Program-made: the position numbers and the translations under genes | Shown here: piece after piece, positions 24,522 through 45,670 of the stretch | Layout of the letters: every line of letters begins with the position of its first letter | Position numbering within the stretch: position 1 is the stretch's first letter | Notes under the pieces: generated by a model | What the model was told of the DNA's origin: nothing | Database searches by the model: none | Seen by the model: the letters and a program-made list of their open reading frames with translations, nothing else | DNA from: Collinsella aerofaciens | Lineage (GTDB): Bacteria; Actinomycetota; Coriobacteriia; Coriobacteriales; Coriobacteriaceae | Assembly (NCBI RefSeq): GCF_002736145.1 | Contig: NZ_CP024160.1 | Span: forward strand, 1,612,001-1,676,000 | Reading direction: 5' to 3' | DNA: 64,000 nucleotides

Positions 24522-25220
24522 CTAGCGCTTATCCCTCCGGGACAAAAGCAGCGCAGCCATGAAAGCGATAATCGCTAGCGTTAGCAGCGTCAAAAGCAGA
24601 GCGAGCGAGTTGTCGCCCGTCGCAGCCAGGCCAAACAGGCCGGGCTTTTTGGAGCCAGCGGGCTGCACAGGAATTGTTTTGCCATCGTCCTCGGCGGTAA
24701 TCTCCCAGCGAATTGCCTTGTTTGCGTCGGCAAGTTCGTTGCCCACCGACGTCGGGACACTTAGTTGCAAATTGAGCACCGTGCTGCCATCGCTCGTAAA
24801 CGTTGCGACCTGCGTGGGGTAAGCAAACACACTGCCCGGCGTTCCCGTCTGGAGCCAGCCTGCAGACGCATCGCCCGCCGACGCCGTTAAGGTAATGGGC
24901 GACAGCAAGTGTGCCGTCTCGTGATCGACAACGGCCCGCACAAACACGCGTACCTGGGACTTTACGCCCGTGGCACGAACCTCAATCTGCTGCTCACGCA
25001 CATCGCCGGGCATTAGATCTTTAAAGGCGGGAAACAGATCGGGGTCCCCCGAGGAGCCCGTCGCCCCCGAGACCGTCAGCTGACGCGCATTTCCGTCATA
25101 GGCAATCGCGGGAGTATCGGCAAACGCACGGGCGGGAACAGCGAGCGCGACCACGCAGAAAATGGCCGCGACCATGCAACGCAAGGAGCGCGCAACACCT
25201 TTGCGAATTGGGAACGCCAT
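24522..25220 (-). CDS. Secreted protein with LAATG cell-wall sorting signal, last gene of the SipW locus
   Basis: 232 residues. A signal peptide (CMVAAIFCVVALAVPARAFA, about 15-34) precedes a beta-rich domain with DLMPGDVREQQIEVRATG and a sorting signal LAATGD, a hydrophobic span LALLLTLLTLAIIAFMAALL and RRDKR. LAxTG replaces LPxTG; the LANTGD proteins at 33.9 and 43.4-45.7 kb use the same pattern. Strong GGAGG precedes ATG 25220, two bases after the previous stop. It is the only gene in the six-gene group with a wall anchor, so I infer it tethers the fibre. No sortase is in the window. Confidence 0.85.
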   Translation of the reverse strand: MAFPIRKGVARSLRCMVAAIFCVVALAVPARAFADTPAIAYDGNARQLTVSGATGSSGDPDLFPAFKDLMPGDVREQQIEVRATGVKSQVRVFVRAVVDHETAHLLSPITLTASAGDASAGWLQTGTPGSVFAYPTQVATFTSDGSTVLNLQLSVPTSVGNELADANKAIRWEITAEDDGKTIPVQPAGSKKPGLFGLAATGDNSLALLLTLLTLAIIAFMAALLLSRRDKR

Positions 25221-25222
25221 AC

Positions 25223-25792
25223 TTACGCACCTCCATGCGGCGGCACCAGCACGCCATCATTGACCGTGCAGTCCCATGCATCGTGCACGGCCTCATCGGG
25301 CGTCGCCTGGACCGCCTGAGTGGAGATATCAACGACAAGATTGCGACCTTCGGTTGCCTTGAGCTCGGTAACTCTATTAATGAGCACGCCGGTTTCACCG
25401 CCGGGAGCAACGGGCGACGTCCAGTAATAGAACCCGTCGCTCGCCTTAACCCAGTTATCAGCCGAGTTCGCGTCCGAGGCATCAGCCACGCTCCACGCAA
25501 TCTCGTAATCCGCCTCCTCCTTCGGCTCCTCCCACAGGCGGGCACCGTTTCCATCCTGCCAGTAGATATCCACTGCAGCACGAATATAGGCGGGCGCAGT
25601 ACCCGTGTTCTGTGCCTTGACATCGCTTTTCACATTGCCGTTGAGCGTTTCCTGAACCGATGGCGTCACCGATCCGATGCCGAACTGGTTGACCAGCACG
25701 CCCGTAACCGAAAGCCAGGCCAGCGTGCCTGCCGTACCGGCCAGGAGGATAACCCCCACCAGCAAGGCGATGATGCGCTTGCGCTTGGACAT
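25223..25792 (-). CDS. TasA-like protein with SipW-type signal peptide
   Basis: 189 residues. The N-terminus, KRKRIIALLVGVILLAGTAG followed by TLAWLSVTGVLVNQFGIGSV, matches the SipW-dependent pattern: basic start, hydrophobic run, a G-T-x-A cleavage zone, then N-x-F-x-x-G. The rest resembles TasA/camelysin-type beta proteins (KAQNTGTAPAYIRAAVDIYW). AAGGAGG sits just before ATG 25792, one base after the stop of the giant adhesin gene. TasA-type proteins form extracellular fibres in Bacillus biofilm; that this one does so is inferred. Confidence 0.82.
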   Translation of the reverse strand: MSKRKRIIALLVGVILLAGTAGTLAWLSVTGVLVNQFGIGSVTPSVQETLNGNVKSDVKAQNTGTAPAYIRAAVDIYWQDGNGARLWEEPKEEADYEIAWSVADASDANSADNWVKASDGFYYWTSPVAPGGETGVLINRVTELKATEGRNLVVDISTQAVQATPDEAVHDAWDCTVNDGVLVPPHGGA

Positions 25793-25793
25793 G

Positions 25794-28700
25794 CTAATCC
25801 TCCTTCTTTGCTACGTTGTCGTTGCTCCAAACGTTATGGGCACGATCGCTGCCATCGATCCATTTGTCGTTCACACGCGTGTTCGTGCAGGTGAACGTGG
25901 CATCGTTCGCGCTCGATGCAGCGGAGATAGTCGCCTGCGCCTTATCGCCCGGCTGCTTGCCAGGGACGCCGATTTGGCTGCTGTAGCGCCATGCCCACGC
26001 TGAGTCCTCCTCGACGGTGTAGATACCCGCCGGGACCGCAAGCTCGATAGCGCCGGAGTACCAGGCGGAACCGTCCTTCAGCTGCGCATCCGATGACACC
26101 GTTACCTCAACCGTGCGCTCATCCAAGGCGTTGCCGTCCATGTCGGCCCGGGAAACCTTGAAGCGGAACGTCTTGCCCTTCGCCCAGCTATCCTGGGTTT
26201 GCTTGACGATCTTGAGCGTATGCGTAGCGGCGAAATCGAACACCGCATTGCCATCGCCCTGAGTGCCGTCGCCCGTGAGCTTGTAGTCCAAACGGTTCGT
26301 CAGCTCAAACGAGCCCTCGCCCGAACCCGAGCTGTAAAGCGATACATACTTCCCGTTGACAGGCGTAGGAGTCTGGCCAGAAAGACCATAGCCCACACGG
26401 TCAACGTGCACCGTCAGTTGCGTGCCCATGAAGGGCTTTGCAAAGCAAGCCTTGAACGGCGCCTTATCGCTCTTGTCATCTACCGTGTTCGCGGCATTGG
26501 GATCAAGCAGCCACTTGAGCTGCCCGGTCACATTCTTAGGGCTCGCAGCTTCCGACGTGTCGTTAGCGACGACCTTATACGTCACCGGATACAAATCCAT
26601 GTCGGCCTTAACCGGTTTACCCTTGAAGTCGCTCCACGCCACTGCTTCGTCGCCATTAACCCACTGCCACTCCAAGAACAACTCCTTCAAGCTGCTATCC
26701 GCTCGCTCGCCCAGGAATGAGACGATTGCGGAGTAGGCTTCGGGATCGTAGGCCACTTCCTTTGGCTCCATGACGGGTTCACCCTTGTTGTCATAGACCG
26801 GGTTGCCGCTCTCATCCATCTTGGGCACTTCGACCGTCTGAACAAAGCCGGCATTACCATCCTGGCCACGCAGATCCCCCGTATCGTTCGGGTCTACCGT
26901 AGCGGTGTAGATGACCTTGCCATCGGTGTCGTGATAGCGCACTTTAAGCGGCGTCTTCTTGTACACCGCAGTGTAGGTCACGCTCTCAAAGGGCTCGCTG
27001 CCCTCGAGGGGATACTTCTCATCGTCAGTCATCAGGGTGTACTGCCCGTCATTGACATAATCGCGCGACCAGCCGACAAAGTCGTACTTGGTGCCGTCAG
27101 TGCCCTCAACCTCCTCGGCGGCCTTGACCTCAAGAGAAATCTGGTCGTCGGAATCAGTGCGGCCGAGGCTACGGACAAGATCGGGATTCGCAAGTTTAGA
27201 GTCGATGTTCGATTGAACGGTAACCAGGCTGGGACGGTAGACCGGGTACAGCTCCATGGGGGCCTTGACCACGGTAGAAGCACTCACCATACGGATGCCC
27301 TCCGACCAAGCGACATAGCCCTTGTCAGGTGCCGGCTGGGCTTCCGTCCAGCCCACGAAGACGTTGATCTTACCCGTATCCCCATCGATAGTGCGGACGT
27401 CATAAGTAGGCTTCGGGATGCCGCCATCAAGGTTGCCGAGCATATCGCCTTGCTGAGCAACTTTGCCGTCCACATCCGTGGCATTGAGGTGGTACACAAC
27501 CGCCAACGGCGAATAGTACGCCACGAATGTATAGGCTCCGCCAGGTTCCACCGGATAAGAGCAAGTACCATGCTCCACATCGTAGGGAAGCGTCTTGATC
27601 TCGCCGTTCGGAAGCTCGATCTCAACCTTCTGCAACTTATACAGCTCACCGCCTGCTTTATAAACCATCGTTGTAATGTCAGGGGTCACCGTTGCCGTAG
27701 CAGGATCGGTGTCCGCGTTGATAACGGGAGCGATGTTGTAGCTAGGCACATTGACCTTGTCCGTGCCCTTAAAACCTGCGCGATACAGGTTGGTGGTGTA
27801 CCTAACATCGTACTTCGCGTACACCGGATAGGCATCCTGGTACTGGGTGACCTTGAAATCTGGTTTCACCAGATACGGTTCGGCCTTATCCGGGTCGGAC
27901 GTAGTGAAGGAGTCGCCATTCACGTCATAAATATAATTCCAGACCGCAGAGTCCTTCCGAACCTCAGCCGTAGAGATCCAGCCCAGGAACTTATGACCCG
28001 GCACCGCCATCTCGGTATCGGTCGGAGAGGCTTCGAGCGTCAGATTGGGATTGACGTCACCATCCTTTCCGTCGTAGGGCTTTGTATTAACCGTCCTATC
28101 CTTATAGAGATGCGGATAGCAATACAGGAACGTCGGATCACCTTCCGCCGTTTTCTGCTGAAGCAAGTTGCTTTTATAGCGTCGAGTAGCAGCCTGCTTG
28201 ACGTTGCCACTCTTGTCATAGAAGTTGACGTCCGTGGTCACCATAGCACGGACATAATATTGCTCCGTCGTTTCAACAAAACTCGAAAAAGGATTCTTTA
28301 TATAAGTCCAGGAACCGTCGTCGGGTCTTTCGAGCGTCCAAAAACTGAAGTGGTATCTATCATGCGCGGGGGTAAATTGAACTTTAATACTTGAGGCTTT
28401 CCACTCATCACTCAGTTTACCGGCTCCTGGAAAATCAGTGTCGGCAATCATATCCTTGAGAGTGTTTGCGCCAGTGTCATTACGCACATTATGCGAGTAG
28501 GCGTTAATAGGCGCAACGATTTGCGTCGCATCAGAGAGAGCGGTGGTGCACTTATCTGCTGGATTCTTATCATCGTGTAGCACATGGGCGGAGTCGTCCG
28601 CGCCAGCACCCCAATGGATAATGTTTTCACGAACATATGTCGCGCCGACGTTTTCCTCAAAGGGCGACTTGTATTTATTCCAAATCGAGCACAACTTCTT

Positions 28701-31289
28701 GCTGTCCGTTAGACCGCTATTTGTGAATGCCCGAACGTAATAATCCACGCGATACTCAAAGCGCGCCGTATAGGTATGTCGGACGGTCAGATCGACGTTT
28801 GCGGGAAGCGTGTAGCTGAGGTCACGGCTTACGCGGACCTCAACCGTGGACCCATCGGCGGCCTGCTTGTTTTCGTACCAGCCCAGGAAGCGATACCCAT
28901 CGGGCAGCTCGTCGTCTTTGGACAGGGGCGTATCGTTCGTGTCGCACACCTGTACCGTGTAGACGCTGGCGCCGCCCCCGGCAGTCTTGACGTCGACTTT
29001 GGTTGTGCCCACGCCAACGCGCTGACGCACATCATCGAGCTCATCCTGCTCATTGCCCTCGAACACCGTTATGATGTTCGACGCGTAGTCGCTGTACACG
29101 GGATAGAAGTCGGTTGGACGGACAACAGTAATCTCGCTACCCGCAGGATAAAAAGCTCCCTGATTTTTAAGATTGGCTAACTTATCCGAGGTGATGGCAG
29201 CATAGCCACCATTCATCCCCGCCTCGCTGCTAGGCTGCGTGGTCCAGCCGATAAATTTCGCGGTAGGCTTCAACCTGCCGCGATCGTCGGGGGCAGCTGG
29301 CGTCAAACCGACGCCATAGCGGTACCAATCCGTGGACTGATCAGGTTGTGCCTTGCCGTCATTCCAATTGAGCGTCTCGCCCTTAACGTTATAGAACAGC
29401 ACCTGCGCCTCGTATGAAGCGATAAAGAGGTCATTACCCTTGAAGCCCTCACTCGCGTCATGATCCTTGCCGTTGTCGGCAGTATAATAGGTCGGCGTTT
29501 TGTCGTACTCCTCGTTCTTCTGGACCTGCTTGCCAGCAGCCACAGCATCGGCATCGGTCTTGCCGTCAAACCAGCTGTTGTCTTGTCCAATTCGGTTCAC
29601 ACGCACATCGGGCTCGCGGAACCAGCCCATAAAGCGGTAGCCACCGTTAGCCTCGGTCAGGCCTGCGGGCTTCGCCGAGGCATCCTGCTTAAACGTTACC
29701 GACGTATCGCCCGTGGCAAGGCCCTGGGCTGTTCCCGCCAGCACGGCGCTCACGGCAAAGGTGTACGGATCGCTGGTAGATTGATCTTTTCCCAACATGG
29801 TTGCCAGAACGGTTGCCGTACCCGCGCCGGGGAAGTCGGTCGTCGTCTTCACGCTTTTGCCGTGTACGGGGATATTCAGTTTGTAGTCCATCGCCCATTC
29901 GTTTGTATGCTTGTCCCCCAAGAGCAGGTCATTGGCAGTAGAGCGTATGGTGCCGGCACAGAAGTCGTAATCATGCTGCTCCCACAGCTCACGTGTGACG
30001 TAGCGTTCGTCGTCCCAGGGACCGAATCCGGCACCGGATACCGTGCCATCACCCGCAAGGGCGTAAATCTTCTTCTTGGCTGCCGTACCCTGGCTAAACC
30101 CGGATAGGCTGACACTAGGCTTGAAGTAGCAATCAGTGATAGTCGCATCACCCGCGTTAGCGCGTGCAGCAATACCGCCCAGGTTCACGTCGTTTTGAAT
30201 AATGGGGATCACGGCGATGGGGTTGTACTGGCGCGAGCTCAAATCGCCGGCGAAATGGCTGCGAGCGATTTCATTACCGCTCTTAGACAAGATGCGGCCT
30301 GCAAGACCGCCCGTCCAAGCGCGCGTTACGGAAACAACGCCCACGTAAGAAGCAGCATAGCTATAGCATTTCGCCGTTGAAAAGCAGTCAATGACTTTAG
30401 CGCCTTCTGCCATGCAGCCGACGAAGCCCGAAGCGTACACGTTGTTGCCGCCCAGGGCACCAATGGCCACATCGTATTTATTGGTAACGTCGGTCATTCC
30501 CTTCTCGGCAATCGAGCCATCCTCGTTGCGCGTAGGCGTCACACGGCAATACTCGATGGTCGAGTTCTCGACGTAGCCGGCAAACGCCGCCATATACAGG
30601 CCCTCGCCACCGATTGCCTGTACGCCCGAAGTCGTGTTGTTAACGGCGCGGCCACCACGGACCTCGCAGTTGTAGAGGGTGCAACCGTTGAGCTCGCCGG
30701 CAATCAGGCCTCCCTCAAAGCCCGCATTAGTAATCACATTGAGCATGTTGTTGGCGCACGTAACGTGCAGGGTGCTCTCCATGACCATAACGTTTTCGAA
30801 GTGGGTGTTGACGGCCTTGCCCACGATAATGCCGCCGCGGAAGTCAGCCCAAATGTTGGCATCCTTGACCAGGAAGTTCTTGATGGTGGCGCCATCGGTC
30901 TCGGCAAAAAAGCCCGTATCGCGCTCGGGATCCAAGACCTTATTCTCGTAGTTCAGGCCCTTCACGGTATGGTTTTGACCGTCAAAGACGCCCTTAAAGG
31001 GATGCTCTTTGTTGCCAAAGGAGAGGTGCTTGACCGTATCCTCAACAATGGCGTTCATATCATCATCGTTAAGAACGATATCGTTATCGAGATAGACGAG
31101 CCACTTCGACGTGTCGCGCTGTCGCGACAGCGCGACACACGCCAGGAAGTCGTTCCTGTTTGTGATATGGAATTCGGTCTGATCCTCGGCATGCGCCACC
31201 GCCGGCAGCACCATAACGCAGCAAAGGGCGATCGCCGCCACAGCGATCAGCCTACCGAGCACACCTCGGTTTCTGTTCTTGATTTCCAT
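25794..31289 (-). CDS. Giant secreted adhesin: beta-helix plus InlB-type repeats
   Basis: 1,831 residues with a Sec signal peptide (ending MVLPAVAHA, near 33). Residues about 85-430 look like a GLUG/pectate-lyase-type beta helix (PFKGVFDGQNHTVKGLNYEN, GGIIVGKAVNTHFENV, GGLIAGELNGCTLYNC). Residues about 500-1600 hold many InlB/Flg_new-type repeats marked by FMGWF, FIGWT, FLGWY, FLGWI, FVGWT and FVGWS. The C-terminus has a Cna-B/prealbumin-like domain (VPAGIYTVEEDSAWAWRYSS) and ends DKWIDGSDRAHNVWSNDN. There is no sorting signal or membrane anchor. It lies 3 bases after one TasA-like gene and 1 base before another, so it is probably carried by the fibre. Confidence 0.9.
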   Translation of the reverse strand: MEIKNRNRGVLGRLIAVAAIALCCVMVLPAVAHAEDQTEFHITNRNDFLACVALSRQRDTSKWLVYLDNDIVLNDDDMNAIVEDTVKHLSFGNKEHPFKGVFDGQNHTVKGLNYENKVLDPERDTGFFAETDGATIKNFLVKDANIWADFRGGIIVGKAVNTHFENVMVMESTLHVTCANNMLNVITNAGFEGGLIAGELNGCTLYNCEVRGGRAVNNTTSGVQAIGGEGLYMAAFAGYVENSTIEYCRVTPTRNEDGSIAEKGMTDVTNKYDVAIGALGGNNVYASGFVGCMAEGAKVIDCFSTAKCYSYAASYVGVVSVTRAWTGGLAGRILSKSGNEIARSHFAGDLSSRQYNPIAVIPIIQNDVNLGGIAARANAGDATITDCYFKPSVSLSGFSQGTAAKKKIYALAGDGTVSGAGFGPWDDERYVTRELWEQHDYDFCAGTIRSTANDLLLGDKHTNEWAMDYKLNIPVHGKSVKTTTDFPGAGTATVLATMLGKDQSTSDPYTFAVSAVLAGTAQGLATGDTSVTFKQDASAKPAGLTEANGGYRFMGWFREPDVRVNRIGQDNSWFDGKTDADAVAAGKQVQKNEEYDKTPTYYTADNGKDHDASEGFKGNDLFIASYEAQVLFYNVKGETLNWNDGKAQPDQSTDWYRYGVGLTPAAPDDRGRLKPTAKFIGWTTQPSSEAGMNGGYAAITSDKLANLKNQGAFYPAGSEITVVRPTDFYPVYSDYASNIITVFEGNEQDELDDVRQRVGVGTTKVDVKTAGGGASVYTVQVCDTNDTPLSKDDELPDGYRFLGWYENKQAADGSTVEVRVSRDLSYTLPANVDLTVRHTYTARFEYRVDYYVRAFTNSGLTDSKKLCSIWNKYKSPFEENVGATYVRENIIHWGAGADDSAHVLHDDKNPADKCTTALSDATQIVAPINAYSHNVRNDTGANTLKDMIADTDFPGAGKLSDEWKASSIKVQFTPAHDRYHFSFWTLERPDDGSWTYIKNPFSSFVETTEQYYVRAMVTTDVNFYDKSGNVKQAATRRYKSNLLQQKTAEGDPTFLYCYPHLYKDRTVNTKPYDGKDGDVNPNLTLEASPTDTEMAVPGHKFLGWISTAEVRKDSAVWNYIYDVNGDSFTTSDPDKAEPYLVKPDFKVTQYQDAYPVYAKYDVRYTTNLYRAGFKGTDKVNVPSYNIAPVINADTDPATATVTPDITTMVYKAGGELYKLQKVEIELPNGEIKTLPYDVEHGTCSYPVEPGGAYTFVAYYSPLAVVYHLNATDVDGKVAQQGDMLGNLDGGIPKPTYDVRTIDGDTGKINVFVGWTEAQPAPDKGYVAWSEGIRMVSASTVVKAPMELYPVYRPSLVTVQSNIDSKLANPDLVRSLGRTDSDDQISLEVKAAEEVEGTDGTKYDFVGWSRDYVNDGQYTLMTDDEKYPLEGSEPFESVTYTAVYKKTPLKVRYHDTDGKVIYTATVDPNDTGDLRGQDGNAGFVQTVEVPKMDESGNPVYDNKGEPVMEPKEVAYDPEAYSAIVSFLGERADSSLKELFLEWQWVNGDEAVAWSDFKGKPVKADMDLYPVTYKVVANDTSEAASPKNVTGQLKWLLDPNAANTVDDKSDKAPFKACFAKPFMGTQLTVHVDRVGYGLSGQTPTPVNGKYVSLYSSGSGEGSFELTNRLDYKLTGDGTQGDGNAVFDFAATHTLKIVKQTQDSWAKGKTFRFKVSRADMDGNALDERTVEVTVSSDAQLKDGSAWYSGAIELAVPAGIYTVEEDSAWAWRYSSQIGVPGKQPGDKAQATISAASSANDATFTCTNTRVNDKWIDGSDRAHNVWSNDNVAKKED

Positions 31290-31292
31290 GGG

Positions 31293-31940
31293 CTAGTTCG
31301 CCTCCGGCCAGCCCACGACGTCAAGCACGTCGAGGACGGTATCGTTTGCCTGCTGATTTTTGGCCTGCACGGCCTGGACGTCGATATCGAGCCTGTATGA
31401 GCCGCCGCGCGCGGCATCGTGGTAGTCGCCCACAAATCGCAGCGAGTCCATGAGGCTCTCCGTCATGGCGCCGGAATCGAGCACGCCCCCGCGTCCGGCC
31501 AATCCGCGGTAGTAGTACCACCCATCGCCGCCATCGATCCACGGGGACCCCTCGCCCGCGTTCACGTGAAAGGCGACGTTGCCCGAGGCGTCCGCACTCG
31601 TACCGTCGGGCGCCACCGACGTCATGCGCAGGCGAGCGCGAACGTACTCAGGCTGCGCGCCGGCGTTCTCCACGCGCACGATGCGGCTGATGTCAGAGCC
31701 CCCGGCCTCGGTGTCGGGATAGTCCCCGTGCTCGTCGGCCTCAAACGGAATCTCCTCGCCCTGCTCGTTTAGGGTGTATTCGCAGACTCGTACCTTCACG
31801 CTGCCAAACGATAGGACGTTGTTCGCCGGAACCATATCAACGGTGAAAGCCAGCGTGCCACACAGGCACGCCAGGGCCAACAGCGCCATCGCGGCAAGCG
31901 CCAAGGTGCGTTTCTGATTGTCGGAAAGATTGTTGAGCAT
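31293..31940 (-). CDS. TasA-like protein with SipW-type signal peptide
   Basis: 215 residues from ATG 31940 (an in-frame TTG at 31952 is possible; the ribosome site is weak in both). The hydrophobic run LALAAMALLALACLCGTLAF is followed by VPANNVLSFGSVKVRVCEYT, the SipW-type cleavage and mature-start pattern. The mature part has SRIVRVENAGAQPEYVRARL, typical of TasA-like beta sandwiches. It is three bases before the giant adhesin gene, whose GGAGG site lies in its last codons, indicating coupling. Likely a minor fibre or adaptor subunit (inference). Confidence 0.8.
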   Translation of the reverse strand: MLNNLSDNQKRTLALAAMALLALACLCGTLAFTVDMVPANNVLSFGSVKVRVCEYTLNEQGEEIPFEADEHGDYPDTEAGGSDISRIVRVENAGAQPEYVRARLRMTSVAPDGTSADASGNVAFHVNAGEGSPWIDGGDGWYYYRGLAGRGGVLDSGAMTESLMDSLRFVGDYHDAARGGSYRLDIDVQAVQAKNQQANDTVLDVLDVVGWPEAN

Positions 31941-31970
31941 TACGTTCGCCAATCGTCAATCAAAGGGGGA

Positions 31971-32019
31971 CCGAGATCCCGACCCGAAAATGGGGATGGG
32001 GAGCGGGCCGGGATCTCGG
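31971..32019 (-). promoter_or_regulatory. Intercistronic hairpin within the fibre operon
   Basis: CCGAGATCCCG and CGGGATCTCGG, extended by CCCG/CGGG, form a strong stem between the main TasA-like gene and the next subunit gene. On the minus strand it is followed by a C run and TTTGATT, too few U residues for a clear terminator. It could stabilise or partly end the upstream message, allowing more of the first subunit than of the downstream adhesin. Confidence 0.6.
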
Positions 32020-32033
32020 TGGAGGGGGTTGGA

Positions 32034-32747
32034 TTACTTCAGGTGGTTATTCGGGTCGTTAACCCAAGCCTTGGCCTGCTCGATGGCGTTCTGGGCATCA
32101 CCCTGATCAGCGCCGAAAATGTAGCAGGAGACCGTCATAGCGGGATCGGTGACGACATCCGTGCTGTTCATAGCAGCCGGGATATGCACGGTGCTGAACA
32201 GCTCACCGGTGTAAGCGGCCTTGCCATCAGCGGGAGTAAGCTGGGCGGGCTGGCCGGTGCCACCAGCGGTATACATAAACAGACCGCTCACGTACTGGCC
32301 ACCGGTGCCGTTGGTCGTCACCTGGTCATCAGCAACCGGCTTCCAGTTATTGTTAAGCGTGAAGTACGGGGTCTTGGCAAGCGCGCCTTCACCGTCCTTC
32401 ACGATGGCGTTCTTGACGTAGATGAACACATAGGACTTATCAGAGTCCTTGCCGATACCGACGTTGGGGTTCTTATTGATGTCGGTGTCGGGAATCATCT
32501 TGGATTTATTGGTCCAGTTGGTCTCGAACAGATAACCATCCACTGAGGGGTTCGTGGGATCAGTGCCGGGCTTGTCCGGATGATCGGGGTCGGGCTTCAC
32601 ATCGGGCTTGTCGATGCTGCCAACCGTGAACTCATTCTTCACCTGATCGGTTGCCGACAGCCATGCGTAGGTGCCCACGCCGGCGGCCAGTACCAGCAGC
32701 AGCAAGGCGGCAATGATGCCGTAGCGTTTTTTCTTCTTGCTTTCCAT
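32034..32747 (-). CDS. Main TasA-like fibre subunit candidate (SipW-type signal peptide)
   Basis: 237 residues from ATG 32747, with AAAGGAAGAG before it. KKKKRYGIIAALLLLVLAAG leads into VGTYAWLSATDQVKNEFTVG, an almost textbook SipW substrate start. An Asp/Pro-rich stretch (PDVKPDPDHPDKPGTDPTNP) follows, then a TasA-like domain with DKSYVFIYVKNAIVKDG and a C-terminal AWVNDPNNHLK. It is the first gene after sipW, as TasA follows SipW in Bacillus. Its simple size and position ahead of a stem-loop suggest it is the abundant subunit (inference). Confidence 0.85.
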   Translation of the reverse strand: MESKKKKRYGIIAALLLLVLAAGVGTYAWLSATDQVKNEFTVGSIDKPDVKPDPDHPDKPGTDPTNPSVDGYLFETNWTNKSKMIPDTDINKNPNVGIGKDSDKSYVFIYVKNAIVKDGEGALAKTPYFTLNNNWKPVADDQVTTNGTGGQYVSGLFMYTAGGTGQPAQLTPADGKAAYTGELFSTVHIPAAMNSTDVVTDPAMTVSCYIFGADQGDAQNAIEQAKAWVNDPNNHLK

Positions 32748-32818
32748 CGTTCTCTTCCTTTCGAAAATCGACTTCCCCGGCAACGGCCCTTGCCGTTGCC
32801 GACACCTCTCCCCTGCCG

Positions 32819-33373
32819 CTATGAACGCCGCTCCCTCGCATGCGTGCGGGCATGCTTGTCCGCAGGCTCGTCGGGAACCATCCGATCGAGCACTATCGAC
32901 GCCGCGACCAGCAGCGCCAGAACGGCCACCACAACAAGCAAACCGGGCATCGTCGTGCAATATGCGTTAACGAAGCCCAGGTAAGGGACACAAAAAGAAA
33001 CGACACCGATCACGCGTGAAAAAGGCGTCTGCTCGGCGTCGTGCATGATGGTTCCATCTGCATTTTTGTTTGCGATTCCCTGCGTGCTGATCGTCCGCGC
33101 CACAGGGTCGACCTCATATACCTGGTGCGTCACCACGGCGCCGTCGGATCGGTAAAAAGTTACACTGTCGCCCGCGGCAATATCCGTCGGCTCAACTTGG
33201 CGAACAAACACCATGGAGCCAACGGGCAACTCGGGCTCCATAGAGCCCGAGAGCACGGCGAAGGGCATGTAACCAAATGCACGGGGAGCGAAAGAAACGA
33301 CGGCAAGGGCTATGACAAGCGCGAGCGCCATGCCACTAAGAAGTGAAATAAATCGTCTGAATCCGCGCGCCAT
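32819..33373 (-). CDS. sipW: SipW-type (ER-type) signal peptidase I
   Basis: 184 residues. An N-terminal helix is followed by the catalytic-serine box AVLSGSMEPELPVGSMVFV (near 40-58) and GDSVTFYRSDGAVVTHQVYE, where His replaces the Lys general base of ordinary bacterial enzymes, the SipW/archaeal type. A later segment, STQGIANKNADG, supplies the acidic part. A second helix (LLVVVAVLALLVAASIVL) and a basic tail end the protein. ATG 33373 has only a weak ribosome site; a TTG precedes it in frame. It should release the three TasA-like proteins encoded downstream. Confidence 0.92.
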   Translation of the reverse strand: MARGFRRFISLLSGMALALVIALAVVSFAPRAFGYMPFAVLSGSMEPELPVGSMVFVRQVEPTDIAAGDSVTFYRSDGAVVTHQVYEVDPVARTISTQGIANKNADGTIMHDAEQTPFSRVIGVVSFCVPYLGFVNAYCTTMPGLLVVVAVLALLVAASIVLDRMVPDEPADKHARTHARERRS

Positions 33374-33818: not shown

Positions 33819-33858
33819 AAAACCCGGGTAGCCAAGTTGTTTGGCTACCCGGGTTTTT
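33819..33858 (-). terminator. Terminator of the FG-GAP surface protein gene
   Basis: AAACCCGGGTAGCCAA and its complement pair around GTTG, and the minus strand continues TTTTCTCTTT. It lies 27 bases after the gene stop and separates it from the sipW locus. Confidence 0.85.
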
Positions 33859-33884: not shown

Positions 33885-36800
33885 CTAGTGGGTCTTGCGG
33901 CGCTTGATCAGCATGATGAGGGCTATCACTACGAGCGTTGCTCCCGCTGCTGCTGCGGTGGCGACTAGGGCGAATGTTTGGTCGCCGGTGTTTGCGAGGT
34001 TCTTCGCTGTGGTCGTAGTCTTGACCTTGGTGTCGGTCTTAGCTCCGTTGTCGGACTTGGGCTTGTCCGGGTTCGTCGGGGTCTCAGGAGTCTCGGGGTC
34101 CTTTGAGCCTTCGGAATCGGTTGGGCCGGCGGTGTTTACCAGCGTATGGTCCAGGAACTTCTTGGCGCCCGCACTTGCCTGTGAGAACAGGCGGCGCGTG
34201 CGGATCGGGGTGGCGTTCACCGTTGTGGGCGCCGTCTCCTCGGCCTCGATATTCACGAGCGTCGTGCCGGTGTCGAGGCCCACGTCGTTGTATCCCACGT
34301 GGCAGTAATACTGCGCACCGTCATCGTCTGCGGTCAGGTCAATCTCGAGCTTTGAGGCCGTTCCAGCCGCGAGGTTGCCATCGGCACCCACGAGCTTAAA
34401 CTCTGTCTCGCCGCGGCCCTTGCGGTACCACATATAGGTCGGTGCCAGCCCTGTTTCGCTATCGTCGGCACCGAGTTGCTTCACATGGCCAATCGCCGAG
34501 AGCGTCAGGTGGCTTCCCGCCGTGCGCTCAACCGAAGAGTCGTATCCAAAATCCGGCCCCTCCGCAGCATCCGCCGCAGGTCCGCTCACGGTCATCGTCA
34601 TGCCATCGGGCATGGTCTTGACCGTGATGATTGCCGAGCGAATACCTGTTTCGGTCGTGGATCCATTCTTAACGGCGGCGATGGCGAATCGATACTCCGT
34701 ATTGGGCTGCAGCCCATCCCACTTGAGCGAGGTCTGCGTGTTGTCGGCAATCTTCCAGCTATTGACGACCGCATCCGCCGCATTGCTCTGCAGCATGCCC
34801 ACGCCGTAGCTAAAGCCACTCTTGTTTGCGAGTACATCGTCCCAGCTAAACGTAACGCTGGTCGAATCGACGGCGTTTGCCGTAAAGCCCGTCACGGCCG
34901 GCGCGTCGGGCATCTCGACGTCCTTAACGTCATAGCCCACGATCCAGAACTGGTCGGTGTCCTTGGTGCCGAGCTTGTCGCCCGAGTCTGCCTCGAACTT
35001 GTCGACATCCACCGCGTTGACGCCCAGACGCCACACAAAACCGTACTTGCCCTGCGCGGCCTCGGGCAGGTTGTCGACGGTGCCGCCGTATTCGGTCGAT
35101 TCACTCGAGGAGTTACCCGTAGTAAAGCCGGCGTTGGCACCAAAGCACAGGCCGCCAAACAACTCGTGCTTTGCGAGCTTCGCGCCCATGACAACGCTGC
35201 CGTTCAGCGTCAAGCCGAGCTCGAGCTCCTGCTCCTTGCCCTCCTCGACTTCGATGGTCTGCTCAATGCTCGCCCCCGACTGCGCGGCGGCGCCGTTAAA
35301 CCCATCGTGCGTGTAGGCGCGCGTTACGCCAGGCTTGCCCAGGCCAAAGGAATCCCCAACGGGAGTCTCGCCGTTGAGCGTCGTTTGATAGGTTCCGGGT
35401 TCTCCCGACCGGTTGGTCAAAAAGTAGCTGAGCGGCGTCATATTGTGCTGTTTGGCAATGCGGTCATAGGCCTCGACATTAACGACCGAGGTCTGCGCGC
35501 CGAGCGACACGGGCGCCGCCATCACGCCCTTGCCACCAGTTTCCTCATTTTCGATCTCATACTCGTAATAGACCATCGGAATCGTGTAGAGCACGGCCTT
35601 GTCACCCTCGCCGGCATGCGACTCATAGCTTACGCTTGTGCTGACCGTGCGCTCGCTCCGGTAGTCATAGCATCCCTCGGCGGCAAAATCGACTGAAGCA
35701 TTCATCGCGACCAGGGGCGGACCGGTCTGCACCTCGACGGCAACGCCCAACTCGGCGCCAATGGTATAGCCCTGGGATGTCCCCGTGCCCTTTTCCTCTC
35801 CGTATGACGTGCCGCCCAACACCAGATAGCCGTATGCCTGCTCCAGATCCTCAACATAGGGCGCATCCTGCAGCACGGCAAGCACGCGCGGGTTGGTATA
35901 GACCTTGTAGCGGTCCTTGTACGTGATCTTGACGCTGTCGTTGTCGACATCGGGCAGCGCGAGCGAGATAAATGTGCCGTAGGTAGTGCCGCGACGGTTG
36001 CTCTCGCTAATCACCTGCTCCTCGCCGCGGCGCACCTTTCCGTTCTCGTCGAGCGAAAAATGCGAGGCGGTCATCCAATAGTAGTCATCGTTCTTGCGCA
36101 GGTCCTCGTCGCGGTGCTTGCCCACCACGGCGATAAAGCTCTCGTTATAGCGGTCCGAACCCGAGACGCTGCCCGCCTTGACGTCGCTGATCCACACCTG
36201 CTCTATACCCTTGTGGTCATGCTTGTTGCTGCTGTTGTATTGCTGACCGCTCATGCTCATGGTTCCGACCATGGACCCCAAGCCCTGAGCCCCGCTCTGT
36301 GCCGTGTTGCAGGCAAAGTCGCGGAACACATCGCCGCCCACGAGCACCTCGTCGACCGCCAGCTGCTCGGACAGGCCGTCAAGGTTGGCAGTGGCAAGGG
36401 CAATAGGCGCCAAGGTGCACGGATAGCGCTTATCCTGAACGCTATCCTTCCATGCGCTGTTGGGCACATGCATCAGCCCATAGGAGGCGAGGAGCCCGTC
36501 TCTGTATTCCTTGCAATCGGAAAGCTTGAACTCGCCAGACTCCGAGTCAAAATACGCGTAGCGGTACAGCGCGCCGTACAGCCCCTTGCTGCCGTCAGAA
36601 GCGCCGTAATCAAAAGCGCTGCGTTGCCAGTCATAGCCCGCAAGAATAAGGCCCGTGACGGTTTCACCCGTCTTCTTTCCTTCTTCATCGTAGGCGGCAA
36701 ACGTGCCGAACGTCGCATTCGCAGCGACCATGGTCTTGCCGTTCGCGGAGAGGGAGATTGCGCCCGCGTCGCCCAGAGCATCGACATGGACGAGCGCACC

Positions 36801-37973
36801 CTTGGATGCATCCCACGAAAACAGCTCGCAATGCGTCGACTTATCAATATTCTTCTTGCCGTAGGGTGCCGAGACCACGATGGCGAGGTCATCGCAAAAA
36901 TCGCGATCGAGGTCGCCGGCCGCTAGCGAAACGACAGGAGCTGACTGAAGCTGCGTCCAGGAGTCGCTCCCGCCCTTGTTGTGCGTGGTGTAGTCCGCGG
37001 CGTTACCGGCATCGATCTTGACGACGCTTTGCTTCCAGTTGCCGCCCTCCAAGTCATACATGTCGACTACAGCCTTGCGCACGCCGTTCTCGTCGACATA
37101 GCAGCCCGCGTAGACAAAAAGCTCGTCGACGCCGTCGCCATCGACATCGCCCGCCTCGACATCAAAGACGGCGTCGTGCTCTTGCAGGTAACCGGCATCC
37201 AGGTACTTAAAACGGCCTTCGTACATCATATTAGTGTTGACCGTCACCGGCAGGTGTGTGTCGAGAGTGCGCGTACGCCCGTTGCTAAACGAGTAGAGGA
37301 CCAGCTCAACCTTTCCGGCGTATGACTTGCCGTCAATCGTCGTGGAGGAACTGTCGCCGTAGGCACGGAGCTCGGCAACGCGGCTCTTTTTGCCCGTGCT
37401 GGCGTCGCTGCAGAACTCAACACTCGTGGCGTGAATGCCCGAGAAACCGTTGTTGTCGTTGGCGAGTACTGTTGAGGACTCATTGTTGCTTAGGTACGAC
37501 CAGGTGCCGCCACCGTAGTCGCTATGCTTGTAGAGATCGCTGTTCGTATCGAAGTTGTTGACGTTTTGCCAGAACTTTGCGGCGCCCCACACACTTCCAT
37601 AGCCATCGGTGAGTTTGCTGCTGCCGCCAATGTCACCGCGCTCGACGTTCTCGAGCTTGTCGCGCAGAGTGTAGCGATTGCCATGGCTACCGTTAGCTGC
37701 CATATAGACCTCGCTGCGCGTGGCAAACGTCGTGGGGGTATCAGTGGAATAGGGGCCAACGGTATCGGCCGGAATGTCCTCGCTCGTGCCCAGACCCAGG
37801 GCTTGATAATCCTGCTCGGTCATATCGGTGATTGCGGGCGCGTCTGCCGCCTGGGCAACCTGGGGCGTGGCCGTGAAGCAGGCGACGCTCGTGGCGATCA
37901 ACGCAGCAAGCGCCGCCGTCCCAACAAGCGGGATTTTCGACAGCCTACGGATACGGGAGTGTGGAACGTACAT
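33885..37973 (-). CDS. Large LANTGD-anchored surface protein with FG-GAP-like repeats and fibronectin III domain
   Basis: 1,362 residues from ATG 37973 (GAGG six bases upstream; an earlier in-frame ATG lacks a site). The signal peptide ends about AQAADA. Calcium-type FG-GAP/VCBS motifs occur, such as DVDGDGVDELFVYAG and DLDRDFCDDLAIVVS. A fibronectin III domain (DSTSVTFSWDDVLANKSGFS ... LQPNTEYRFAIAAV) lies near 1,060-1,150, then an Ig-like domain (TYMWYRKGRGETEF), a Pro/Lys spacer and LANTGD with a membrane span and KRRKTH. It is probably wall-bound and binds a ligand or glycan. It is upstream of sipW but separately terminated. Confidence 0.88.
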   Translation of the reverse strand: MYVPHSRIRRLSKIPLVGTAALAALIATSVACFTATPQVAQAADAPAITDMTEQDYQALGLGTSEDIPADTVGPYSTDTPTTFATRSEVYMAANGSHGNRYTLRDKLENVERGDIGGSSKLTDGYGSVWGAAKFWQNVNNFDTNSDLYKHSDYGGGTWSYLSNNESSTVLANDNNGFSGIHATSVEFCSDASTGKKSRVAELRAYGDSSSTTIDGKSYAGKVELVLYSFSNGRTRTLDTHLPVTVNTNMMYEGRFKYLDAGYLQEHDAVFDVEAGDVDGDGVDELFVYAGCYVDENGVRKAVVDMYDLEGGNWKQSVVKIDAGNAADYTTHNKGGSDSWTQLQSAPVVSLAAGDLDRDFCDDLAIVVSAPYGKKNIDKSTHCELFSWDASKGALVHVDALGDAGAISLSANGKTMVAANATFGTFAAYDEEGKKTGETVTGLILAGYDWQRSAFDYGASDGSKGLYGALYRYAYFDSESGEFKLSDCKEYRDGLLASYGLMHVPNSAWKDSVQDKRYPCTLAPIALATANLDGLSEQLAVDEVLVGGDVFRDFACNTAQSGAQGLGSMVGTMSMSGQQYNSSNKHDHKGIEQVWISDVKAGSVSGSDRYNESFIAVVGKHRDEDLRKNDDYYWMTASHFSLDENGKVRRGEEQVISESNRRGTTYGTFISLALPDVDNDSVKITYKDRYKVYTNPRVLAVLQDAPYVEDLEQAYGYLVLGGTSYGEEKGTGTSQGYTIGAELGVAVEVQTGPPLVAMNASVDFAAEGCYDYRSERTVSTSVSYESHAGEGDKAVLYTIPMVYYEYEIENEETGGKGVMAAPVSLGAQTSVVNVEAYDRIAKQHNMTPLSYFLTNRSGEPGTYQTTLNGETPVGDSFGLGKPGVTRAYTHDGFNGAAAQSGASIEQTIEVEEGKEQELELGLTLNGSVVMGAKLAKHELFGGLCFGANAGFTTGNSSSESTEYGGTVDNLPEAAQGKYGFVWRLGVNAVDVDKFEADSGDKLGTKDTDQFWIVGYDVKDVEMPDAPAVTGFTANAVDSTSVTFSWDDVLANKSGFSYGVGMLQSNAADAVVNSWKIADNTQTSLKWDGLQPNTEYRFAIAAVKNGSTTETGIRSAIITVKTMPDGMTMTVSGPAADAAEGPDFGYDSSVERTAGSHLTLSAIGHVKQLGADDSETGLAPTYMWYRKGRGETEFKLVGADGNLAAGTASKLEIDLTADDDGAQYYCHVGYNDVGLDTGTTLVNIEAEETAPTTVNATPIRTRRLFSQASAGAKKFLDHTLVNTAGPTDSEGSKDPETPETPTNPDKPKSDNGAKTDTKVKTTTTAKNLANTGDQTFALVATAAAAGATLVVIALIMLIKRRKTH

Positions 37974-38089
37974 GAGGGACCTCGCTTTATTCGAATGGAG
38001 TGGACTCATTTTTGCAAATGATACGTCCGATGCCCGATATCACGTGTCTCATTTTCGCCAACGGCGTGTCTCATTTTTGAGAATCCGAG

Positions 38090-38560
38090 ATGCCGCGGAA
38101 ATCTTATCCCAGCTCAAAGGCCATTTCTGGGATGTATTTTCCGTCGAGTGCCTCATCGGGAAACTGCATCCCATTTCAAGCGTCGATTCTGGGACGCACT
38201 TTCCCCTTAGACCCTCAACCGGAAACCGCATCCCACTTTGAGCGCAAATTCCGGGATGCATTTTCCGCTTGAGCCTCATCGGGAAACGGCGTCCCACTTT
38301 GAGGGCTGATTGTGGGATGCATTTTCCGTTTTTGCTCTCATTGGGAAAATGCATCCCGTTTCTTGACCGAATAATGGGACGCAATTTCCCGTTGGAGCGC
38401 CTTTGGGAAAGTGTGTCCCACTTCGACCGCCCAGAGTGGGATGCACTTTCCGCAAAGCACCTCAACGGGAAACTACGTCCCATTCCAAAGGCAAATTCCG
38501 GGACGCATTTTTCGAAAGCCTGCCCATCCGGAAAGCCCGTCCCACTTTGGACGCATCCGG
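38090..38560. repeat. Tandem array of about eight palindromes, period near 62 bp
   Basis: Each unit reads GGGAAA-nn-GCATCCCA, then TTTGAGCG-like bases, then TGGGATGCATTTTCC, so every unit folds on itself. Left arms begin near 38097, 38158, 38221, 38280, 38343, 38406, 38468 and 38530. Units differ by substitutions in both arms while most pairing is kept. There is no gene in the 800-base gap 37974-38774. Not CRISPR: units are palindromic throughout and there are no equal spacers. Related single units occur at 1023-1140 and near 24300. Confidence 0.85.
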
Positions 38561-38603
38561 GCACGGAACCATCGACCTATCAGGCCTCCCATCAATAAAG
38601 AGG

Positions 38604-43367: not shown

Positions 43368-44378
43368 ATGAACGACATTCTCGCAAGAAGAGCAAGACGA
43401 GCAACCGTGGGCATCGCCCTTTCCGCGGCACTTGTCGCGGGAATCGCCCCCGTAACGGCGATCGCGGCAGAAACCAGTTCCCCCACCGGCGCAGTTGCCT
43501 TGCAGACGGAAGATGCGGCCGCCGCAAAAGAAAAAGCGTATGCAGCCATGCAGGAAGCGCTCAAAAACCTCGAGGCCGCAAAAGACGCCGCAAGTCCCGA
43601 GAAAATTGCGAGATTCAATGATGACATTGCCCGTTTTCAAGAGCTCCACGACAAGATGGCGGCGCAAGCCACCGAATTGAGGGAATCCCTTCCCACCATG
43701 CAAGCGGACGTCGATGCAGCCCAAGCCAAATACGACGAGGCCATCAACCGGGTAAGCGAGCTCCAGGCAGAATTAAAGGCACTTGAAGCACTCGGCGACG
43801 AGGAGCCCAGCATAACTATTAAAGAGCATATTAAGCAGTTGCGAAGTGAGATCATGGCGGCAAAAGCGCAAGAAGACTCTTGCGAAACGGAGCTCCGCGA
43901 GCGCCGCGACGGCCTCAAAAAGCAGGAAAGACGAGTTAATGACTGTGAACTTGCTGCAGAGAAATATAAAGCCCATATCGACCAGTTCATAGCCTGGCGA
44001 GATGCGCTCCTCGACAATTTGAAAAAAGCGCAAACGGCCTATGACGACGCCTGCAAGGCATACGAAGAGGCAAAGGCCGCGGCAGACAAGGCCACCTCGC
44101 CCGAGATAACGCAACCGACCGAGACGACGCCTCCCTCCAACTCGGCGCAACCGGCCGAGGCGACACAGCCCACCGGCTCGTCCGCGACCGGCAAAAATAC
44201 CCCGCCAAGCTCCATCAAGCAGGCGAACTCGAGCAGCGGCAAGCAAGCAGATACGACCGCTGGCAAGCTCGCGAACACGGGCGACGCAGCGCCGAGCGCA
44301 ATCGTACTCGCAGGAATCGCCGCCGCAGGCCTCGGAATAACCGCCACGGGTGTACGCCGCCTCAAGAACTCAAAATAG
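43368..44378 (+). CDS. Coiled-coil LANTGD-anchored surface protein, copy 1
   Basis: 336 residues. A signal peptide ends near TAIAA (residue 34). Residues about 50-245 form a charged coiled coil (ALKNLEAAKDAASPEK; RELRERR-type heptads) with Tyr-Asp-Asp-Ala repeats (KAQTAYDDACKAYEEAKAAA). A Thr/Pro/Ser-rich spacer follows, then LANTGD, a hydrophobic span and RRLKNSK. GAGGTG lies before the ATG. Such proteins extend from the wall as rods; no ligand domain is visible. The next gene is a diverged duplicate. Confidence 0.88.
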   Translation: MNDILARRARRATVGIALSAALVAGIAPVTAIAAETSSPTGAVALQTEDAAAAKEKAYAAMQEALKNLEAAKDAASPEKIARFNDDIARFQELHDKMAAQATELRESLPTMQADVDAAQAKYDEAINRVSELQAELKALEALGDEEPSITIKEHIKQLRSEIMAAKAQEDSCETELRERRDGLKKQERRVNDCELAAEKYKAHIDQFIAWRDALLDNLKKAQTAYDDACKAYEEAKAAADKATSPEITQPTETTPPSNSAQPAEATQPTGSSATGKNTPPSSIKQANSSSGKQADTTAGKLANTGDAAPSAIVLAGIAAAGLGITATGVRRLKNSK

Positions 44379-44677: not shown

Positions 44678-45670
44678 ATGAACGACATTCTCGCAAGAAG
44701 AGCAAGACGAGCAACTGTGGGCATCGCCCTTTCCGCGGCACTTGTCGCGGGAATCGCCCCCGTAACGGCGATCGCGGCAGAAACCAGCTCCCCCACCGGT
44801 GCAGTTGCCTTGCAGACGGAAGATGCGGCCACCGCAAAAGAAAAAGCGTATGCAGCCATGCAGGAAGCGCTCAAAAACCTCGAAGCCGCAAAAGACGCCG
44901 CAAGTCCCGAAAAACTTGCGGAAATCGATAATGACATTGCCGCATTTCAAGAACTCTACGACATGGTGGTGGCGGAAGCCGCCAAACGGAGGGAACCCCT
45001 TCCCGCCATGCAAGCGAACGTCGATGCAGCCCAAGCCAAATACGATGAGGCCCACAACCGGACAAGCGGCCTTCAGGCAGAATTAAATAAGGCAATCGAC
45101 GACGGAGCTTCTAGCGAAACTATTAAGCAGTTGCGAAGTGAGATCATGTCGGCAGAAAGGCGAGAAAAATCTTGTGAAGATGATCTTCACTCCTACCAAC
45201 ACCGGCTCGAAAGCCAGGAAAGACAGGTTCAGCATTTCGAAAGTGAGGCGGAGGAAGCTAAAGCCCACATCGATGAGGACATAGCCAAGCGAAATGCGCT
45301 CCTCGGCGATTTGGAAAAGGCGCAAGCGGCCTATGACGACGCCTGCAAGGCATACGAAGAGGCAAAGGCCGCGGCAGACAAGGCCACCTCGCCCGAGGTG
45401 ACGAAACCCGCCGAGACAGTGCCTCCCTCCGGCTCGACGCAACCCGCCGAGACGGCACAGCCCGCCGGCTCGTCCGCGACCGGCAAAGACACCTCGCCAA
45501 GCTCCACCAAGCAGGCGAACTCGAGCAGCGGCAAGCAAGCGGATACGACCGCCGGCAAGCTCGCGAACACGGGAGACGCAGCGCCGAGCGCAATCGCACT
45601 CGCAGCAATCGCCGCCGCAGGCCTCGGAATAACCGCCACAGCCACACGCCGCCTCAAGAACTCAAAATAG
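44678..45670 (+). CDS. Coiled-coil LANTGD-anchored surface protein, copy 2
   Basis: 330 residues. The first 75 residues are nearly identical to copy 1 and the last 110 very similar, but the central coil (about 85-215) differs: AAFQELYDMVVAEAAKRREP instead of ARFQELHDKMAAQATELRES, and different spacing later. The same TAYDD/AAYDD repeat, spacer and LANTGD anchor follow. Identical ends around a variable centre suggest gene conversion of the ends or selection for change in the exposed coil. Confidence 0.88.
   Translation: MNDILARRARRATVGIALSAALVAGIAPVTAIAAETSSPTGAVALQTEDAATAKEKAYAAMQEALKNLEAAKDAASPEKLAEIDNDIAAFQELYDMVVAEAAKRREPLPAMQANVDAAQAKYDEAHNRTSGLQAELNKAIDDGASSETIKQLRSEIMSAERREKSCEDDLHSYQHRLESQERQVQHFESEAEEAKAHIDEDIAKRNALLGDLEKAQAAYDDACKAYEEAKAAADKATSPEVTKPAETVPPSGSTQPAETAQPAGSSATGKDTSPSSTKQANSSSGKQADTTAGKLANTGDAAPSAIALAAIAAAGLGITATATRRLKNSK

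Follow-up and report, generated by a model that had tools for sequence, protein, structure and literature searches.

The six-gene set on the minus strand of Collinsella aerofaciens at positions 24522-33373 of the window (the whole 64,000-nucleotide stretch of DNA analyzed here) rather probably encodes a dedicated SipW-dependent appendage, in which small subunits would form a donor-strand polymer, a giant adhesin-like protein would dock by its tail, and a tether of TasA fold would accept a strand. Most of what is known of SipW/TasA-type fibers comes from Bacillus and Clostridium perfringens, where they form biofilm matrix. With its own giant surface protein and tether, the fixed set of six genes would represent a kind of adhesive appendage in common gut Actinomycetota and in Bacillota, about whose surface structures little is known. 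The locus also suggests, in a form that can be tested directly, how an adhesin lacking an anchor could be held. The new element, as judged from sequence, is an adhesin tail that appears to repeat, with the same spacing, a motif present at the mature N-termini of the subunits. A literature search for SipW together with Collinsella found no paper, although this is no proof of absence elsewhere.

Layout of the six-gene locus

All six open reading frames reported in the sequence-only reading were found, intact and at the same coordinates. In the sense of transcription, their order is sipW, g2, g3, the adhesin gene, g5, and the gene of an LAATG protein (the anchor or tether). The last four genes had been described as 1-3 bases apart, and their three junctions indeed measure 3, 1, and 2 bases; the sipW-g2 gap is 71 bases and the g2-g3 gap about 93 bases. 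The window lies in a single 2.3-Mb contig with one SipW above the cut-off. SipW-type signals were detected in two proteins of the genome, g2 and g5, both in the locus, and the ER-type SipW peptidase adjoins its substrates, as in TasA/camelysin systems.

The sipW gene (32819..33373, minus strand, as are all genes of the set) encodes an ER-type signal peptidase I (TIGR02228, E = 7.5e-21, over the cut-off). Its Ser (SGSM) and His (THQ) are conserved among relatives in the ortholog alignment. It is followed by g2 (32034..32747), a predicted SipW-processed subunit matching TIGR04088, the SipW-cognate signal model, over the cut-off (4.7e-7), and by g3 (31293..31940), a SipW-type, BsaA-like subunit. 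The g3 gene probably starts at the ATG at 31940, a TTG at 31952 being a possible start. The giant adhesin-like protein (25794..31289) has exactly the 1,831 residues given earlier, begins with a Sec signal, and lacks a C-terminal anchor, also as described. The set ends with g5 (25223..25792), another SipW-type subunit, and the tethering protein (24522..25220). Neither the adhesin nor the anchor of the window genome gave a Pfam or NCBIfam match over the cut-off.

Several features of the surroundings were noted. The gene upstream of sipW in the window (up1374, 33885-38009) encodes a 1,374-residue FG-GAP/fn3 LANTG protein. Its membership as a seventh component was weighed and dismissed, since most orthologous loci have no copy next to them and since, in genome G037, the counterpart (L051:8238-12359, 99% identity) is at the opposite end of the set, downstream of the anchor gene. 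up1374 has moved recently, and its flank carries shared repeat sequence. Between genes, at window positions 38066-38576, an array repeats about every 62 bases (GGAAA..TGCGTCCCA); related copies occur at several other genome sites, and similar sequence comes after the anchor gene in relatives. An invertible promoter upstream of sipW was likewise rejected, as only one inverted repeat was found (33819-33857), best read as the up1374 terminator. Further along the window, a tandem pair of LANTG-anchored proteins with identical N-termini (43368-44378 and 44678-45670) lies in a region of strong AT skew.

Conservation and probable transfer of the set

The same gene order was found in nine more genomes of the window's family, some broken across contigs and three diverged (about 27-50% identity per gene). 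A wide scan of 84,980 species genomes with an adhesin alignment returned 17 full-length relatives, followed by a sharp fall to matches on the N-terminal repeat region only. All 17 records, with identities down to about 20-40%, retain the order and strand of the set, and no partner is missing for which the contig has room. This recurrence of the six-gene order in diverged loci places the presence of the set beyond chance. The carriers among the Coriobacteriia are the C. aerofaciens group, C. stercoris, C. phocaeensis, Eggerthella sinensis, Paraeggerthella, Rubneribacter, and Slackia; those among the Bacillota are a Clostridium, a Clostridia MAG, and two Bacilli MAGs. The search for the same order in other Coriobacteriia, proposed earlier as a check, was thus positive. 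The set is not confined to that class, since Clostridia and Bacilli also carry it.

Within 298 Coriobacteriia genomes, 32 contain anchor-family matches. Most of these matches (27/36) lie within 10.1 kb of a sipW match, the remainder being mostly contig breaks or very weak. About 14 of the anchor-bearing genomes have the six-gene set; others of them have compact SipW loci that encode several BsaA-like proteins and an anchor-like protein without the giant protein.

The adhesin tree nests the C. phocaeensis copy (L079 versus L078), with full support, among those of Slackia and separates the C. aerofaciens group from the other Collinsella copies. These placements suggest that the set was probably transferred between genera as one unit. 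Two deviating loci were also observed: in G037, sipW (L052:887-1441) has one in-frame TAG, the other genes of the set being open, and in G307, from another family of the order, a g5-anchor pair (L180:11330-12686) has neither sipW nor the giant protein nearby.

Subunits, adhesin tail, and tether

The three small proteins had been read as TasA-like, each with a SipW-type signal. The signals are supported for all three: g2 is over the TIGR04088 cut-off, g5 is below it, and g3 is counted as SipW-type through its profile match to g5, to which it is homologous over the full length (99.7%, E = 3e-25). The profile of g2 matches that of g3 (95.9% over 174 columns) and that of g5 in the signal region. 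The three proteins are therefore mutually related with SipW-type N-termini, but the TasA fold match is that of the LAATG protein, g5 having only generic Ig-like and pilin matches. Residues 11-144 of g5 match TIGR04090 (E = 2.9e-6), i.e., its mature domain is homologous to the BsaA family. The same model matches 8/8 g5 orthologs (best 2.9e-12), and the scores of g5 (27.2 bits) and g3 (18.4 bits) are both under the curated cut-off of 60 bits. On these profile matches, g5 is BsaA-like. The camelysin family (PF12389) was not found in the mature domains of the SipW substrates; g2 alone matches it, at residues 4-46, in the signal region.

In the model of g5 (mean pLDDT 87.3), a segment of low confidence that lies free after the SipW cut leads into a beta-sandwich. 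Fold searches with this model returned generic Ig-like domains (best Z 5.2) and, at Z 4-5, the donor-strand pilins AggA, PsaA, and MyfA; Foldseek gave weak mixed matches. TasA was not among the matches listed, which is no evidence of differing folds. The matches are compatible with a fiber subunit, which falls short of proof of a TasA fold. Solved structures were also searched by sequence, with profiles built for the anchor, g5, g2, and the adhesin, and no match was credible.

The mature N-termini of the subunits share the motif A-[WY]-[LFY]-x7-N-x-F-x-x-G. In g2, a donor-type motif (compare the TasA donor strand, PMC9674648) reads A-W-L-x7-N-E-F-T-V-G and lies around the predicted SipW cut (32619..32666, minus strand). 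In g5, it reads A-W-L-x7-N-Q-F-G-I-G (25673..25720, minus strand) and falls in the free segment of the model.

Closely related strains differ most in g2 (mean identity of 66% versus 79-93% for the other proteins of the set). The g2-g3 gap contains a hairpin (31970..32020, minus strand; -35.2 kcal/mol, z -3.7, 0/200 shuffles) that is kept in close relatives, and several distant lineages have hairpins there too. It probably limits read-through or stabilizes the sipW-g2 mRNA. In C. perfringens, a short sipW-bsaA message is found plus a read-through message (PMC7395162), and a short message of sipW and the first subunit with read-through is plausible here too. Given the variability of g2, the hairpin behind it, and this precedent, g2 is probably the major fiber subunit. 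The sipW-g2 gap (32748-32821) likewise has a strong hairpin (z -3.1).

The giant protein, a putative adhesin, has a GLUG/beta-helix-like N-terminal part after the Sec signal, InlB-B-type repeats, and a CnaB-like C-terminal domain. The GLUG-like and InlB-B-type repeats are clear in orthologs only. Its C-terminal tail (WIDGSDRAHNVWSND; 25818..25862, minus strand) matches the donor motif of the subunits, weakly in this copy and strongly in relatives. The conserved tail motif is W-[LIVF]-D-[GS]-x5-N-x-[FYW]; it is often the very end of the protein, and the subunits show the same spacing at their mature N-termini (W-L-x7-N-x-F-x-x-G). The likeness was scored with a weight matrix for which only N-termini of g2 and g5 from other lineages were used. 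The tail was the best-scoring segment of the whole protein in 11/15 adhesins (8/12 non-redundant), and none of 3000 column-permuted matrices did as well as the real motif. With the full matrix, 7/15 adhesin tails reached at least 5 bits versus 0/182 other large ORFs, taken as controls. In the window's own copy, W replaces F and the tail ranks only 7-11, so that the tail claim for this genome rests on orthology. The motif is weak or absent in a few lineages (weak in L076, truncated in L081, rank 2 in L080). The tail gives a specific mode to the earlier suggestion that the anchorless adhesin is carried on or in a fiber, the fiber being a structure that we infer.

Tails were also compared with their cognate subunits in compact SipW loci. 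The matching is suggestive in L181 (11/2000 shuffles) and L183 (41/2000) only, L187 giving no support. Tail imitation may be wider than this locus type. Of note, L181:3295-5040 encodes a 581-residue protein that ends in LSDVVSVSNHIGS, resembling the N-terminus of the neighboring subunit, LSTDLTVTNHLS.

The last gene of the set encodes a protein with an ordinary signal peptide, a predicted TasA-like domain, and a C-terminal transmembrane helix (model pLDDT 76). Its C-terminus reads LAATG-DN-transmembrane-RRDKR, with the sorting-type motif, recognized in the sequence, at 24615..24629 (minus strand). The transmembrane tail is kept in every locus, and the TG motif is lost in distant orthologs. The earlier proposal of an LAATG wall anchor fits the window copy, which has the LAATG-transmembrane tail, but the LPXTG-type motif is not universal, distant copies keeping only the transmembrane part. 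The three best solved matches of the model are all TasA (Z 8.7, 8.4, and 7.5). The first of these, with 5of2 (134 residues, Z 8.7), barely exceeds what unrelated models reach, though the top rows point to a single family. The next solved match is an archaeal bundling pilin (Pyrobaculum, 7ueg; Z 6.2), and the nearest clearly unrelated rows score 5.8. As TasA provides the three top matches, the TasA fold within the locus is, according to this model, that of the tethering protein and not, so far, of the SipW substrates. Profile comparison of the anchor with g2, g3, and g5 gave no link. The tether has an ordinary signal peptide in place of a SipW-type one, and none of its orthologs has a donor motif at the N-terminus. 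In the model, the first strand begins about 2 residues past the likely signal cleavage site, too close for a donor strand like that of TasA to fit in between.

Proposed assembly and comparison with known systems

TasA subunits are linked through a donor strand at the N-terminus (PMC9674648); TapA has a copy of this strand, a TasA-like N-terminus that it donates (PMC10151520); and the BsaA polymers of C. perfringens get outside only with SipW (PMC7395162). The subunits of the present locus have a donor segment and a sandwich, the adhesin a donor-like segment only, and the tether a sandwich only, and a fiber built by strand donation is the simplest reading of this distribution. From the computed gene order, homologies, signal types, predicted folds, and tail motif, we infer polymerization, docking, polarity, and sorting as follows. 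SipW would cut g2, g3, and g5, and the freed N-termini would serve as donor strands for polymerization by strand complementation, g2 probably being the most abundant subunit. A fixed, non-polymerizing stalk, in which single copies of the SipW-cut proteins link the adhesin to the TasA-fold anchor by strand insertion, seems unlikely: there is one gene of each in a fixed order, with three distinct subunits instead of one repeated, as such a stalk would have, but g2 varies like an exposed major subunit, the strong hairpin behind it suggests an excess of g2, and the related TasA and BsaA polymerize.

In the polymerizing fiber, the adhesin-like protein would leave by the ordinary Sec/SPase I route and, having no anchor, would join through a C-terminal tail imitating the donor strand of a subunit, at the fiber end with a free groove. 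The tether, with a TasA-fold domain and no donor strand of its own, would accept a strand at the opposite end. The subunits and the adhesin might instead be shed as a soluble matrix, the anchor being merely a surface assembly chaperone like CapP of B. cereus, as BsaA polymers are mainly extracellular (PMC7395162) and CapP is wall-associated and steers polymerization (PMC13082335). We regard this as quite improbable, given that no locus has lost the tethering C-terminus, not even those without the TG motif, and that the fold of the tether is that of the fiber subunit TasA.

In the tethered fiber, the transmembrane tail would hold the tether in place, probably joined in the window species by sortase attachment via LAATG. 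This motif, three sortase genes elsewhere in the genome, and the CnaB-like end of the adhesin could recall a classical Gram-positive sortase-assembled pilus; such a pilus is highly improbable here, as the three sortases are all outside the window, with none in the locus, and a sorting signal is absent from g2, g3, g5, and the adhesin. That g2, g3, and g5 are camelysin-type proteases of a locus degrading or remodeling host matrix is hardly credible, as the match to Peptidase_M73, just over the cut-off, is limited to the signal region of g2 (residues 4-46).

Within the strand-donation reading, we propose more tentatively that the adhesin is mounted by imitation: its C-terminal 15 residues may copy the donor strand, and a donor-less, wall- or membrane-held TasA-fold protein may close the other end. 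If so, the donor-only, donor-plus-acceptor, and acceptor-only roles would make up a chaperone-free and usher-free adhesive pilus common to two phyla. Of the sequence-only reading as a whole, the dedicated SipW locus, the related small subunits, the giant surface protein, the tether, and the order kept in Coriobacteriia stand, with parts reassigned.

The sipW-bsaABCRSD locus of C. perfringens (BsaA, TIGR04090; PMC7395162) resembles the present one in having sipW first, a SipW-cut small subunit second, and more secreted proteins after, as well as in the relationship of g5 and g3 to the BsaA family. It differs in that the BsaA-family scores here are below the curated cut-off, no ORF for a bsaRS two-component regulator is present in the six-gene set, and the Collinsella locus has a giant adhesin and a tethered TasA-fold protein. 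SipW, a TasA fold, and donor-type N-termini are shared with tapA-sipW-tasA of B. subtilis (PMC9674648, PMC10151520), and TapA is a precedent for an accessory protein bearing a copy of the donor strand. Here, in contrast, it is a tethered protein outside the SipW substrates that has the TasA fold, a 1,800-residue protein bears the donor-motif copy at its C-terminus, and no TapA was seen. The B. cereus locus sipW-tasA-capP-calY (PMC13082335) also groups several SipW substrates with a wall-associated accessory protein, but CapP attaches to the wall by a disordered C-domain without a transmembrane/sorting tail, and there is no giant adhesin.

Chaperone-usher pili with a tip adhesin are likewise strand-donation fibers with the adhesin at one end, except that the present locus has no chaperone or usher and its adhesin would donate a strand rather than accept one. 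The archaeal bundling pili of Pyrobaculum have a pilin whose fold resembles the tethering protein; we know of no SipW-adhesin-anchor set for them. Since the BsaA family scores stay under the cut-off and the TasA-fold protein has neither a SipW signal nor a donor strand, the locus is best described as working like the TasA and BsaA systems and filed as neither.
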